Positions 7,790 to 21,819 of a stretch of 64,000 nucleotides of DNA are shown piece after piece. Position 1 is the first letter of the stretch; each line of letters starts with the position of its first letter. Position numbers and translations under genes: made by a program. Source of the DNA: Haloterrigena salifodinae (GTDB taxonomy: Archaea > Halobacteriota > Halobacteria > Halobacteriales > Natrialbaceae); the NCBI RefSeq assembly GCF_003977755.1, contig NZ_RQWN01000001.1:822995-886994 (forward strand). Direction: 5' to 3'. The notes beneath the pieces were generated by a model. It was not told the DNA's origin and did no database searches. It worked only from the letters and a program-made list of their open reading frames with translations.

Positions 7790-8053
7790 TTACTCGAAGA
7801 CCGGCGAGTCCTCCTCGAGCGTTTCGATGTCGTCGACGAGCTTCCGGACGTCCTCGGGGAACAGCGAGACCTGGACCTCGCTGCCGTCGTCGTCTTCGAA
7901 GACGAGTTTGACGCGCTTGTCACCGAATTCCCGCGCCTCGGCGGACTCGACGTCGAACATCTTGACCGTCGCCGACTTGTTCGCCGGGCCGACGTTCTTG
8001 ATCGATCCGTCGTTCAGCTCTACCATGAAGTCCTCGAGCGTCAGTGAGAGCAT
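7790..8053 (-). CDS. conserved haloarchaeal protein, 87 residues
   Basis: Small acidic protein beginning [14 protein letters not shown] place the start at ATG 8053 because upstream sequence reads as non-coding and the divergent gene needs the 158-base space for its promoter. No membrane segment, no cysteine cluster. The pattern of alternating strands ([30 protein letters not shown]) suggests a small beta-rich fold. I recognise it only as a haloarchaeal conserved hypothetical; no function can be assigned. An alternative start is the Met at residue 10. Confidence 0.7.
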
Positions 8054-16329: not shown

Positions 16330-16620
16330 ATGACCGAGGAAGTCGACACGACGACCTTCGAGATCAGCGCCGACGACGGTACCACCGACGAAGTCACGGT
16401 CCCCACCGGACTCCTCGACCTCGTGGCGGAAGGCGACCAGACCGACGCCGAAACGGTCGGCGACGTCACCCTGCTGTCCTTCGCCAGCCGCGCCCACCAC
16501 ATCGTCCACCACGGCGAGGAGTCGGACGAGGAACTCGAGGCCCAGGAGTCACGTATCATGGACCTGTTCGAGGAACGTTTCGGCGTGACCTACGGCGAAG
16601 CGACCGGCCACCAGCACTAA
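16330..16620 (+). CDS. conserved haloarchaeal protein, 96 residues
   Basis: Acidic protein with strands (TTTFEISADDG, EVTVPTGLLDLV) then a helical half (ASRAHHIVHHGEESDEELEAQ, IMDLFEERFG). It ends in GHQH. ATG 16330 lies about 26 bases after a TATA-like CTTTAGGG at 16301-16308, so the start is well supported and the transcript leaderless. I recognise no domain with a known activity. Confidence 0.7.
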   Translation: MTEEVDTTTFEISADDGTTDEVTVPTGLLDLVAEGDQTDAETVGDVTLLSFASRAHHIVHHGEESDEELEAQESRIMDLFEERFGVTYGEATGHQH

Positions 16621-16723: not shown

Positions 16724-19700
16724 TTACTCCGTAGCAACCGCGGAGCCGTTCGCGTCGGCCCCCGAACCGGCTCCGTCGGAAACGGACGGCTCGTCCGTTC
16801 CGGCGGGCGATTCGGTCGTCTCCGTTCCCGTCGGCGCTTCCGGTTCGGATTCCGTCGGTGAGCCGTCCGTCGTCGGCTCCGAACCGGCCGACTCCGCCGA
16901 GACGGTGTCTTCGGACGTGCGCTGTTCCTCCGTCGGCTGCTCGGCGGTTGCGTTCGCCGGCTGCTCGTCAGCGTCTGCAGTCGGTTCCGCGTCCGCTGGT
17001 CCGTCCGCCGTCGACTCCGCGCCGGTCGGCGTCTCCGCGGCCTCGGCTTCCTCGATCGTCACGGTGGTCTCGGCGGTCTCGTTCTCGCTCGAGACCGCGA
17101 CCGGGTACTCGCCGGGCTCGAGAGTGATCGTCTCGGCGGTCAGCGTCACGAGTTCAGATTCGGTAGGCGCGAGCGAGACCGGCGTCTCGTTGACGACCGC
17201 GCCGTCGATCGCGAGTTCGACGTCCTGCGTACCGTTCTCTCCGCCGGTGTTCTCGAGGTTGGCGTCAACTACGAGGGTCTCGCCCGCTTCGACCGGCGCG
17301 TTCGTCCCGGCGATCGAGACGGTGAACGCGGCGGGATCGGTCGGTTCGCTCGAATCGATCTCGCCGGCCGGCTCCGTCTGTGCGGTCAGCGGCTCCTCGT
17401 AGTCGTAGTTGCTCATGTCGACCTCCCAGACGAGCCGTTCGTCATCGGTTTCGGGCGTCCAGTCGACGGTAAACGAATCGTTGCCGGGCTCGAGTTCCGA
17501 CGGTGGCTCGTCGTCCGTGGTTCCCTCGACGAACTCGCTGCCGGCCACCAGCGATTCCTCGTTTGGATTCTCGTACTCGAAGGTGACCGCGATTCCGTCC
17601 TCGGTCGGCGTCGTCTCCACCACGCTGATGTTCGGCCGTTCGGGCCGGATCTCCTCGAGACACTCGCTAGCATTCGGATTCAGATAGTCGATCGATCCCG
17701 GCGTCGCTTCGGGCGACGCGAAGCCGGTGATCACGGCGCCCGTATCGCCTTCGGGGACCGTGACGGTCGCGCCGTCGGCCGTCTCGGCGACGGTGAAGTC
17801 GTCGCCGGTCTCGTAGGTGATCGTCCCCTCGAACGGCGCCTCGAGGTCCTCGCCGACCGTGATGGCGTACTCGCCCATCGAGTTGCCGAAGCCGCCACTT
17901 TCGTAGAACGCGGTGCCGACGATGATCCTGTCGCCCGCTTCGAAGGAGCCGGTCACCTCGGCCTGCGAACAGCCGGGGAACGTCGCCTCGAACGTCGCCG
18001 GATCGCCGTCGACCGTGTACTCGACGGACTCGTTCGCCAGTGCCGTGCCGTTCTCGTCGGTGACGGCGACCTCGAGCGTCGCGTTCTCGGAGAGTGGCGG
18101 CTCGAGATCGAGCGACTCGAACTCGGCGGTCTCGTTGGCCTCGAAGAGATCGCTCTCCCCACGTTGCGTGCCGTTCTCGTCGGTCGCGGTGAGTCGGTAG
18201 TCAACGGTCGCGTTCGCCTCGTCGACGACGAGCGTCTCGCCGTCGCCCGTCTGGTCCGACACGTTGAGCGTGGCCGCCGATTCGTTCGGCTCAGCCGGTT
18301 CGTCCGGAGCGTCGTCGACCGTGTACTCGACGGATTCGTTCACCAGCGCCGTGCCGTTGTCGTCGGTGACGGCGACGTCGACCGTCGCGTTCTCGGAGAG
18401 CGGCGAATCGAACTCGAGTTCGAGGTCCGTCACCGTCTCGTTGGCCTCGAACGACTGGCTCTCGGCCGCGGTTCCGTTAGCCGACGCCGTCACCGCGTAG
18501 TCGACGGTCGCGCTCGCTTCGTCGACGGTCAGGTTCTCGCCGTCGCCGGTCTGATCGCTCACTGAGAGCGTCGCGTTCGGCTCGGCCGGTTCCTGCGGTT
18601 CTTGGGGCTCTTGTGGCACCTGCGGCTCGTCGCCGACCGAGACGAACGCCGTGTCGAGCACCGGCACGCCGGCGTCGGTGACGTACGGGACGTCCTCCGC
18701 CCCGTCGGTGTCGCCGTACTCGAACGCTCCGTCGTCGTTCGTATCGTGGTGGACCACCGCGGTAAGGGGCTGGTCCTCCTCGATCGGCTCCTCGAGGTCG
18801 ATCTCGACGTCGGAGTGGCTCCCGGCCTCGAGGGCGCTCGAGGTTCCGAGCACGGCGCCCGGATCGGCGACGGCGTCGGCCGCGTAGACCGCGACGAAGC
18901 CGCCCTCCGAGAGATCGAGTTCGTCGACGGTGACCGTCTCGCCGTCGCTCTCCCGGTCGGCGAACGTGATCGACGCCGTTCCCTCGAGTTCGTCGATCTC
19001 GTCAGCGCGATCCTCGGCGTCGTCCTCGACGAACTGCCGGATCTCGGTCGCGTCGGCGGTCTCCTGCTGGACCGCGTACGCGGTGGCCTCGGATGCAGTC
19101 TCCTGGGTCAGGACCTGTAGTTGCGTGACGCTGATCCGCTGGTACTGGACGACGCGGGCCGTCTCCTGCGTGGCGCTGCTGGCGGCGACCTGGATCTGTT
19201 CGACGGTCGCCTCTTGAGACTGACTCAGTGCGCCGCTGGCACCGCCGGACGCCAGCCGCTGGATCTGCGTGACGTCGACGACCTGTTGCTGGAGCACCGC
19301 TCCCTCGCCGGCGCCGAACGCGGCGGCCTGAATCTGTTCGATCTCGGCGATCTGGTACTGGACCGCCGACTCGATCGCTCCCTGAGACGCGCCGACCGCG
19401 GCGTACTGGATCTGGGTGATCGAAATCTCCTGGTGTTGGACCAACACGCCGCCCGCGGCCCCGTCGGCCGCCGCCTGGATCTGCTCGACCGTGGCCGACT
19501 GGCTCTGATAGATCGCCCCTTTGGCGGCGCCGAACGAGGCCTCCTGAATCTGGCTGATCGAGATCCGCTGGACCTGTTCGACGCTGACGGTCTGGATCTG
19601 CGTCAGCGCTCCCCTGCCGGCCCCGCGAGCCGCGGCCTGGGTCTGCTCGACGGAGACCGCCTGCCGCTGGACGAGCGCACCCTTCGCGGCGCCGGTGGCG

Positions 19701-20725
19701 GCCTTCTGCACCTGCTTGATGTTCACGCGCTGGCGCTGCTCGACGTCGACCTCCTGGCTCTGTTCGCCTGCGAGGGCTGCGGGGACGCTCCCCTCGAGTG
19801 CCCCCGCGGACGCGCCGGCCGCCGCGTGCTGGACGTGCTCGAGCGTGATCCGCTGGCGCTGTTCGACGGTGATCTTCTGGTACTGCTCGAGGACGCCGTA
19901 GGCCGCCCCCTGCGCGGCCTCCTGGGTCTTCGGGTGATCCCGAACGTCGCTATCGCCCGCTTCCCGGCACGCCCCCGCCGCGGCCCCGCGCGTGGCGACC
20001 TGAATCTGGTCGACGTCGGCGTGCTGTTTCTGGGCGAGCGCGCCGTGGGTCGCTCCCCACGTCGCGCTCTGCATCTGGTCCGCTGAGACCGTCTGCGACT
20101 GGGTGAGCGCGCCGTCGGTTGCGCCACCGACCGCGGACTGGATCTGTTCGATCTCGGCATCCTGAGACTGGATCAGCGAACCGTGGACCGCGCCGGCCGT
20201 CGCCGCCTGAATCTGCTCGGCGTCGGCCGCCTGATGCTGGGCCGCCGACCGGCTGGCGGCCTCGACGGCCGTCGCGCGCTGTTCCTGGGTTACCTCGATG
20301 CCCTGCTGCTGGGCCAGTTCGATCCCCTCGTCGACGCCGGCCTCGACGGCCGTCGTCTGTTCCTGTGCGAGCGAGGCGCTCGCGTCGGCGTCGGTGGTCG
20401 CCTCCGCGTCGGTCGCGGCCGATTCGGCCGCGGAGTCGAACGACACTAACTCGCCGTCTCCGCCCGATTGACTCGCACGCACCGGTTCACGATCCGCCGC
20501 ATCCGCGGCAGTGGCGTTCGCACTCCCGCTGCCGTCGTCTTGACTGGCGGTTGCACTGTCTGCAGCGGCGATACCGGCCGTTCTGCCGTTTCCCTCCCCG
20601 GGAGCGCTCTCGCCGCCCTCGAACGGGACGATACCGCCGCCGAGCAGCGGAAGTGCCACTACGCTCGTGACCAGCAGCGCGGCGACGGCGAGCACCGCTA
20701 CGGCCGCGCCTCGAGACCGATTCAT
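16724..20725 (-). CDS. giant exported Q-x-Q repeat protein with DUF7282-like and CARDB-like domains
   Basis: 1333 residues. Residues 8-30 form a hydrophobic signal/anchor. Residues 143-562 hold about 15 units of some 23 residues of the form V-x-V-x-Q-I-Q-x-A-A-x-G-A-x-x-G-A-L-x-Q-x-Q. Residues 585-695 look like DUF7282 (ITFADRESDGETVTVDELDL). Then come a PQEPQEPQEP linker, two Ig-like repeats (each starting LxVSDQTGDGE, about 718-900), a further beta region, and a CARDB-like domain (about 1120-1215). The tail (1216-1333) is Thr/Glu/Ser/Pro low complexity with no PGF-CTERM or final helix. Probably a cell-surface or secreted structural or adhesive protein held by its N-terminal helix. The repeat type is not one I can name. 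Confidence 0.8.
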   Translation of the reverse strand: MNRSRGAAVAVLAVAALLVTSVVALPLLGGGIVPFEGGESAPGEGNGRTAGIAAADSATASQDDGSGSANATAADAADREPVRASQSGGDGELVSFDSAAESAATDAEATTDADASASLAQEQTTAVEAGVDEGIELAQQQGIEVTQEQRATAVEAASRSAAQHQAADAEQIQAATAGAVHGSLIQSQDAEIEQIQSAVGGATDGALTQSQTVSADQMQSATWGATHGALAQKQHADVDQIQVATRGAAAGACREAGDSDVRDHPKTQEAAQGAAYGVLEQYQKITVEQRQRITLEHVQHAAAGASAGALEGSVPAALAGEQSQEVDVEQRQRVNIKQVQKAATGAAKGALVQRQAVSVEQTQAAARGAGRGALTQIQTVSVEQVQRISISQIQEASFGAAKGAIYQSQSATVEQIQAAADGAAGGVLVQHQEISITQIQYAAVGASQGAIESAVQYQIAEIEQIQAAAFGAGEGAVLQQQVVDVTQIQRLASGGASGALSQSQEATVEQIQVAASSATQETARVVQYQRISVTQLQVLTQETASEATAYAVQQETADATEIRQFVEDDAEDRADEIDELEGTASITFADRESDGETVTVDELDLSEGGFVAVYAADAVADPGAVLGTSSALEAGSHSDVEIDLEEPIEEDQPLTAVVHHDTNDDGAFEYGDTDGAEDVPYVTDAGVPVLDTAFVSVGDEPQVPQEPQEPQEPAEPNATLSVSDQTGDGENLTVDEASATVDYAVTASANGTAAESQSFEANETVTDLELEFDSPLSENATVDVAVTDDNGTALVNESVEYTVDDAPDEPAEPNESAATLNVSDQTGDGETLVVDEANATVDYRLTATDENGTQRGESDLFEANETAEFESLDLEPPLSENATLEVAVTDENGTALANESVEYTVDGDPATFEATFPGCSQAEVTGSFEAGDRIIVGTAFYESGGFGNSMGEYAITVGEDLEAPFEGTITYETGDDFTVAETADGATVTVPEGDTGAVITGFASPEATPGSIDYLNPNASECLEEIRPERPNISVVETTPTEDGIAVTFEYENPNEESLVAGSEFVEGTTDDEPPSELEPGNDSFTVDWTPETDDERLVWEVDMSNYDYEEPLTAQTEPAGEIDSSEPTDPAAFTVSIAGTNAPVEAGETLVVDANLENTGGENGTQDVELAIDGAVVNETPVSLAPTESELVTLTAETITLEPGEYPVAVSSENETAETTVTIEEAEAAETPTGAESTADGPADAEPTADADEQPANATAEQPTEEQRTSEDTVSAESAGSEPTTDGSPTESEPEAPTGTETTESPAGTDEPSVSDGAGSGADANGSAVATE
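19040..20299 (-). repeat. tandem 23-residue Q-x-Q repeats inside the giant protein
   Basis: Examples of units: VSVEQTQAAARGAGRGALTQ, AEIEQIQAAAFGAGEGAVLQ, ATVEQIQAAADGAAGGVLVQ. The strand-like V-x-V-x-Q-x-Q part alternates with a small-residue helix or turn. Three units carry an inserted extra strand (for example VEQVQRISISQIQ), and one is interrupted by GACREAGDSDVRDHPK at residues 251-266. DNA copies differ at many third positions, so the repeats are old or kept apart by selection. Confidence 0.85.
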
Positions 20726-21186: not shown

Positions 21187-21218
21187 TCGGAAACCGAAGT
21201 GTTGAACTTGGTTTACGA
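21187..21218. promoter_or_regulatory. BirA-type biotin operator upstream of bioY
   Basis: TCGGAAACC, 14-base spacer, GGTTTACGA. The known bacterial/archaeal BirA consensus is TTGTAAACC-N14-16-GGTTTACAA; the left arm matches 7 of 9 and the right 8 of 9, with the correct spacing. It ends 13 bases before the bioY ATG, so a bound BirA-biotin complex would cover the transcription start and repress bioYMN when biotin is plentiful. BirA itself is not in the window. Confidence 0.75.
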
Positions 21219-21231
21219 GAGTGGGAGTGGT

Positions 21232-21819
21232 ATGGCAACGAATCGAGAGACGGTCGATCTCGTCGACGGGGACGTCGTCCGGCAGTTCGCTCGCGCGGCG
21301 GTGCTGGCGGCGCTGGTGGGGGCGTCGATATTCGTGACGATCCCGTATCCGTTTTCGCCGGCGCCGATCACGCTGCAGGTCCTGTTCGTCTTTCTCGCCG
21401 GCCTCGTCTTGGGGCCGGTCTGGGGAGCCGTCTCGATGCTCCTCTACCTGACCGCCGGCGCGGCCGGCCTCCCGGTCTTTTCGGGGATGGAGGCCGGATT
21501 TGGCCCCCTCGTCGGAAATACCGCGGGCTACCTCTGGTCGTACCCGCTCGCGGCGGCGCTGATCGGCGCCGTCGTTCACCGGGGCACGGACCTCCGAAAT
21601 CCCGCCGACGTCCCCCTGCCGATCGTCGTCGCCGCGCTCGTCGCCGCGACGATCCTCATCTACGCCATGGGGACGGCGTACGCGGCCTGGCTTCAGGCCC
21701 TCGAGCCCTGGGAGGCGATCACCGTCTACGCGCTCCATTTCGTTCCCGCCGAACTGGTCAAGATGGTCGCCGCGATCGCGATCGTCGAGAGCGGGCGACT
21801 CGAGCCGGTCGGATCGTGA
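21232..21819 (+). CDS. bioY: biotin transporter substrate-binding subunit BioY
   Basis: 195 residues with six membrane helices, S-component of the energy-coupling-factor biotin importer. Family text is clear: SPAPITLQVLFVFLAG, LGPVWGAVSMLLYLTAG, FSGMEAGFGPLVGNTAGYL. It binds biotin in the membrane and is moved by the BioM/BioN module encoded next. GTGGGAGTGG before the ATG (21232) contains a plausible ribosome site. Expected control by the BirA-type operator at 21187-21218. Confidence 0.95.
   Translation: MATNRETVDLVDGDVVRQFARAAVLAALVGASIFVTIPYPFSPAPITLQVLFVFLAGLVLGPVWGAVSMLLYLTAGAAGLPVFSGMEAGFGPLVGNTAGYLWSYPLAAALIGAVVHRGTDLRNPADVPLPIVVAALVAATILIYAMGTAYAAWLQALEPWEAITVYALHFVPAELVKMVAAIAIVESGRLEPVGS

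Follow-up and report, generated by a model that had tools for sequence, protein, structure and literature searches.

The window analysed here, a stretch of 64,000 nucleotides from Haloterrigena salifodinae, carries on its reverse strand a gene for an exported multi-domain protein, in which a long array of 23-residue repeats stands ahead of a DUF7282 domain and further domains. The features of the locus, with the basis of each assignment in brackets, are as follows:

16724..20725, minus strand: gene of the exported repeat protein, 1333 amino acids (ORF; the frame is open in all close relatives)
20633..20725, minus strand: N-terminal segment of residues 1-31, MNRSRGAAVAVLAVAALLVTSVVALPLLGGG, a signal or signal anchor (hydropathy; conserved TSVxALPxLGGG)
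20381..20632, minus strand: acidic low-complexity linker, residues 32-115 (composition; poorly conserved)
18989..20380, minus strand: predicted helical repeat domain, residues 116-579 (repeat statistics, unit scan, AlphaFold2)
18641..18976, minus strand: DUF7282 domain of residues 584-695, modelled as beta (PF23951, E 4e-34; AlphaFold2)
18011..18628, minus strand: residues 700-905, a pair of Ig-like repeats with 'ATLxVSDQTGDG..' (PF23951 at E 4e-5, short of the cut-off)
17456..18013, minus strand: uncharacterised beta-type region, residues 905-1090 (sub-threshold Pfam match only)
17135..17326, minus strand: CARDB-like domain, residues 1134-1197 matched (PF07705 E 5e-4, 20.6 bits)
16727..17134, minus strand: acidic tail of low complexity, lacking a C-terminal membrane segment (hydropathy, composition)
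21199..21819, plus strand: bioY, a divergent neighbour by which the locus is recognised in Natrialbaceae; not part of the mechanism (tblastn)

Domain layout and gene order

Our analysis supports the view of the initial annotation that the protein is exported and built of several domains. Among the joined domains that it named, DUF7282 is secure (117.6 bits against a cut-off of 27), whereas the CARDB-like match is borderline and falls below the cut-off (20.6 against 22.7 bits) and the Ig-like part is weak, with a weak likeness to DUF7282. By hydropathy the N-terminal segment is the sole strongly hydrophobic stretch, so that the protein is either set free or kept attached through a signal that is not cleaved; an archaeosortase-type C-terminal anchor (a hydrophobic segment followed by Arg) is absent from the window protein. 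Across Natrialbaceae, the signal segment keeps its TSVxALPxLGGG motif to an unusual degree, beyond the needs of a plain signal peptide. Unlike the repeats, the rest of the protein is acidic: acidic residues account for 10.5% of the repeats and for 24-26% of the other large domains.

Gene order was compared by tblastn of the window neighbours against 57 relatives. The genes bioY-bioM-bioN lie divergently upstream at every one of the 37 loci from Natrialbaceae with enough flanking sequence to include them, and a small conserved gene (16330-16620 in the window) is found on the opposite side of the repeat gene in 36 of them. Outside Natrialbaceae, the neighbours are unrelated and bioYMN are absent beside the repeat gene. 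Four genomes (L151, L152, L155 and L156), including one from a genus whose other species carry the repeat gene, show the same order without it, the small gene adjoining bioY with a gap of 174 bp in one of the four. Thus, the repeat gene is dispensable, and its absence from these genomes is probably a recent loss. A link to biotin uptake, suggested by this adjacency, was considered and rejected, because relatives outside the family lack bioYMN and bioY persists where the repeat gene is absent; for the same reasons, the adjacency is treated as inherited gene order.

A widespread 23-residue repeat

The repeat is real and lies where the initial annotation placed it, at residues 143-562, which correspond exactly to 20299-19040. 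This region holds 31 Q-x-Q motifs, compared with a mean of 11.8 and a maximum of 21 in 2000 composition shuffles, and it matches itself best at a lag of 23, where 112 residues are identical; 2000 shuffles give no more than 72 at any lag. In agreement with the estimate of about fifteen units, 13 clear ones pass a pattern scan and two to three degenerate ones flank them. These QxQ/GxxxG units make up the repeat domain together with predicted capping helices. Their spacing is mostly 23 residues, and also 26, 31 and 41 at three-residue or octad (QxQxVxVx) inserts; the stretch is composed of 17% Gln, 21% Ala and 8% Gly. From one Q-x-Q to the next in 58 proteins, spacings of 8 (892 cases) and 15 (478), which together give 23, are dominant, and extra octads are present. 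As DNA, the copies in the window gene are old: where two units have the same residue, the third base of the codon is shared in only 43% of cases.

A set of 663 units was gathered by a pattern that itself fixes Q3, Q5, G10 and G14. Among the positions not fixed in this way, A7 reaches 89%, A11 83% and Gln at -5 and -3 97-98%. Ser, Thr, Asn or Asp occupies position 0 in 86% of units, as opposed to 30-37% at the further variable positions that were checked, and Lys, Arg, Val and Ile are almost absent from position 0; positions -1 and 4 are hydrophobic and position 2 is mostly Glu or Thr. The variable positions 2, 6, 9, 13 and 17 share one helix stripe, and G10 and G14 with A7 and A11 give small-xxx-small faces. 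A unit matches its positional counterpart at 78% and other units at 47%. The repeat domain is the best-conserved part of the protein in the family, with a median identity of 70% against 31-62% elsewhere (60% for DUF7282, 37% for the tail).

A search of haloarchaeal genomes found the repeat in 103 of the 125 genomes of Natrialbaceae, the GTDB family of the window itself, and in 26 of its 29 genera, nearly always in single copy and over the full 420 residues. The sample of the order gave 87 matching genomes out of 293, with several copies in some lineages, and a phylum-wide sample gave relatives only in this same order and none outside. Among others, they occur in Natrinema, Natronorubrum, Haloterrigena, Natrarchaeobius and Natrialba, and further in Halorussus, Haladaptatus, Halosimplex, Halorientalis and Haloarcula. 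Two haloarchaeal plasmids carry partial relatives, and IMG/VR and phage collections contained no viral or phage relative of the repeat. One contig of Natronolimnohabitans innermongolicus (NZ_AOHZ01000079.1, L106) terminates at 7799-7817 in ctgtctcttatacacatc, which we take to be the Nextera transposase adapter, so that its open frame ends in false residues (CLLYT).

Where an annotation was seen, the relatives are listed only as hypothetical proteins. The repeat region has no match above the curated cut-off in Pfam, NCBIfam or PHROGs, the latter two giving none, and a profile search with the repeat found no significant sequence match among PDB chains. Its best sub-threshold family match is SNARE (E 0.11, 12.9 bits against a cut-off of 26.8); a relationship to Syntaxin and SNARE was rejected, the weak matches (E 0.03-0.4) being helix-composition matches. 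Text searches of the literature on DUF7282, on solenoids in haloarchaea and on large haloarchaeal surface proteins brought up nothing on this repeat family, and one on 23-residue repeats brought up only unrelated ones. In line with the earlier statement that no named repeat is known to have this consensus, the QxQ domain, helical by prediction, is widespread but unnamed, and is described in no library searched.

Predicted fold of the repeat array

The fold was predicted in two AlphaFold2 runs, one on residues 110-700 of the window protein (53 sequences) and the other on the repeats alone of the Haloarcula rara homologue (a domain of 387 residues; 38 sequences). In the first, the repeat region came out all-helical and DUF7282 as a beta domain (pLDDT 87.9, pTM 0.79), and the second was likewise all-helical, with one helix of 16-17 residues per unit (pLDDT 89.3, pTM 0.86); two of the five models were poor in each run (mean pLDDT 67 and 66; 51 and 46). 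In both models, the helix starts just after position 0 in most units, and the cap residues at this position with hydrophobic residues at -1 and 4 suggest a helix N-cap with staple. The initial annotation had proposed a solenoid of strands with stacked Gln ladders. The confidence of the models is good (pLDDT 88 and 89) and a solenoid-type arrangement is probable, but the array is predicted as helices rather than strands: with one helix per unit the models fall in the alpha-solenoid class, and in-register strands in each unit, as in a Gln-ladder beta-solenoid, appear in neither.

Several observations count against a helical array, besides the poor models in each run. The models put Gln -5 and -3 in loops although these residues are 97-98% invariant, and from -5 to 6 the entropy rises and falls at every second position (a power of 9.3 at 180 degrees and of 0.2 near 100), which suits a strand. 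In addition, two short paralogues with a twin-arginine leader bear the QxQSVxVxQxQ part by itself, set between Gly/Ser linkers. A rival fold is a beta/alpha solenoid, with QxQxVxVxQxQ as an 11-residue strand and AAxGAxxGAL as a 12-residue helix in leucine-rich-repeat-like coils, Gln and Val facing the helices and the Gln ladder being retained. It would agree with the period-two variability, with the helix-like variability of positions 6-17 (best angle 96 degrees), with the octad inserts, which preserve the same alternation, and with the isolated QxQSVxVxQxQ modules of short paralogues. Nevertheless, the repeat part of both models is free of strands, bar isolated residues, and position 0 is nearly always a helix-cap residue, unlike an exposed strand position; we regard such a fold as doubtful, although worth keeping in mind. 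A pure beta-solenoid or curli-like amyloid with stacked Gln ladders, as first read, seems very improbable. Its Gln positions are invariant, and curli (curlin) repeats also have a period of 22-23 residues and conserved Gln, a likeness that we compared via Pfam only; however, no curlin or other Pfam repeat family matched, and the AAxGAxxGAL half of each unit is helix-like both in its pattern and in the two models. Taken as a whole, the models make a helical solenoid the likely fold of the array.

Like known alpha-solenoids and designed repeats (TALE, DHR designs, the FD15 flat repeat), the predicted stack has short helices and short loops; it differs from them in its single helix per 23-residue unit and in the lack of sequence similarity to PDB chains. 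The best PDB folds from Foldseek and VIA-align include designed repeats and TALE, and ammonium channels for the second model. When normalised to the model, their TM-scores are about 0.1-0.25, and Z is at most 7.3 (repeat-only model), values within the range of unrelated helical models. For TALE, HEAT, TPR and other natural alpha-solenoid families, the TM-scores likewise reach about 0.25 or less and Z at most 7.3. No close PDB fold was found with either program, which is not evidence of a new fold.

A candidate outer head in haloarchaeal exported proteins

In relatives, the parts behind the repeats are of extracellular type and variable: some have DUF7282, some a beta-helix, some a set of twelve TSP3 repeats together with a CAP domain, and others stretches rich in Thr and Pro. 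The C-terminus of five relatives (L117, L122, L125, L127 and L130) consists of a hydrophobic segment with Arg behind it. The conserved repeats, the varying partners and the anchors point to a constant head on a changing stalk or anchor. Moreover, several relatives have N-glycosylation sequons inside the repeats, mostly with Asn at position 0, which fits exposure of the repeat domain. Some paralogues (L136-L138, L140 and L141) carry a twin-arginine leader, and the domain may therefore also be exported folded. Haloarchaeal surface proteins with DUF7282, TSP3 or CAP and C-terminal anchors share partners, acidity and an exported N-terminus with the window protein, and differ from it in the QxQ domain itself, which no searched library holds.

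The paralogues are diverse in build. L136 (4095-5120, minus strand) and L137 (4185-5165, minus strand) encode proteins of 341 and 326 amino acids that begin with a twin-arginine leader and contain 4-5 units; their middle is rich in Lys, and in their tail single QSQSVDVSQSQ modules are set apart by Gly/Ser linkers. This type is full-length in only 2 of 125 family genomes. The same leader is found in L140 (2676-5762, minus strand), L141 (2842-5439, minus strand) and L138 (3598-5232, plus strand), and the tandem units of L140 are near-identical (..QHQEVTVEQIQYAATGTAQGAASG..), in contrast to those of the window gene, which are old and have diverged. L142 (3916-10521) encodes a 2201-residue relative in which the repeats occur together with TSP3 repeats and a CAP domain; at its C-terminus, a hydrophobic segment followed by Arg resembles an anchor.

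On balance we favour, by some margin short of confidence, an exported alpha-solenoid head for binding or self-assembly, the parts behind it being spacers or anchors. The repeat domain would form the N-terminal domain of a Sec-type exported protein, and each unit would provide one short helix (V-x-Q-I-Q-x-A-A-x-G-A-x-x-G-A-L) capped by Ser, Thr, Asn or Asp. The Q-x-Q loop would join each helix to the next, so that the helices stack; Ala and Gly would permit very close packing, the invariant Gln at both helix ends would probably hydrogen-bond neighbouring helices and loops, and the solenoid core would have little charge. DUF7282, Ig-like, CARDB-like, TSP3, CAP and Thr-rich parts would be interchangeable spacers and anchors behind this constant head, which would most likely bind a cell-surface partner or pack with its own copies. 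That last function is a guess from conservation over most of the helix surface. A comparable case of a 23-residue repeat in an exposed protein is the neck of DC-SIGN, the oligomerization domain of a glycan-binding receptor (PMC5275740); no sequence relation was shown, and the window units form a conserved N-terminal domain.

The initial annotation also suggested a stalk, sheath or adhesin. A putative role as adhesin or sheath is possible. As a spacer or stalk, the repeats would serve to display the C-terminal beta domains, which would do the work; the long array does adjoin Ig-like domains, and the number of units differs between lineages, from 10 to 19 by pattern count. However, within Natrialbaceae the array can be aligned from end to end and is the constant, most conserved part, the C-terminal domains being variable or exchanged for others, and in relatives anchored at the C-terminus the repeats would lie at the end remote from the anchor. 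We thus find a stalk unlikely, and rather less attractive than a head.

To conclude, an exported alpha-solenoid head might, as a tentative proposal, represent a new natural solenoid class of single-helix 23-residue units, tightly packed through Ala and Gly, with invariant Gln at either end of each helix and low in charge, kept in Halobacteriales as the constant outer domain of an otherwise variable set of exported proteins that would assemble or bind at the cell surface. Most sampled Natrialbaceae keep the domain in single copy at a fixed locus, where it can be followed, deleted and solved. Most haloarchaeal proteins rely on acidic surfaces in high salt. If the predicted packing is true, the domain would show how a low-charge helical array rich in Gln, Ala and Gly stays folded under these conditions.
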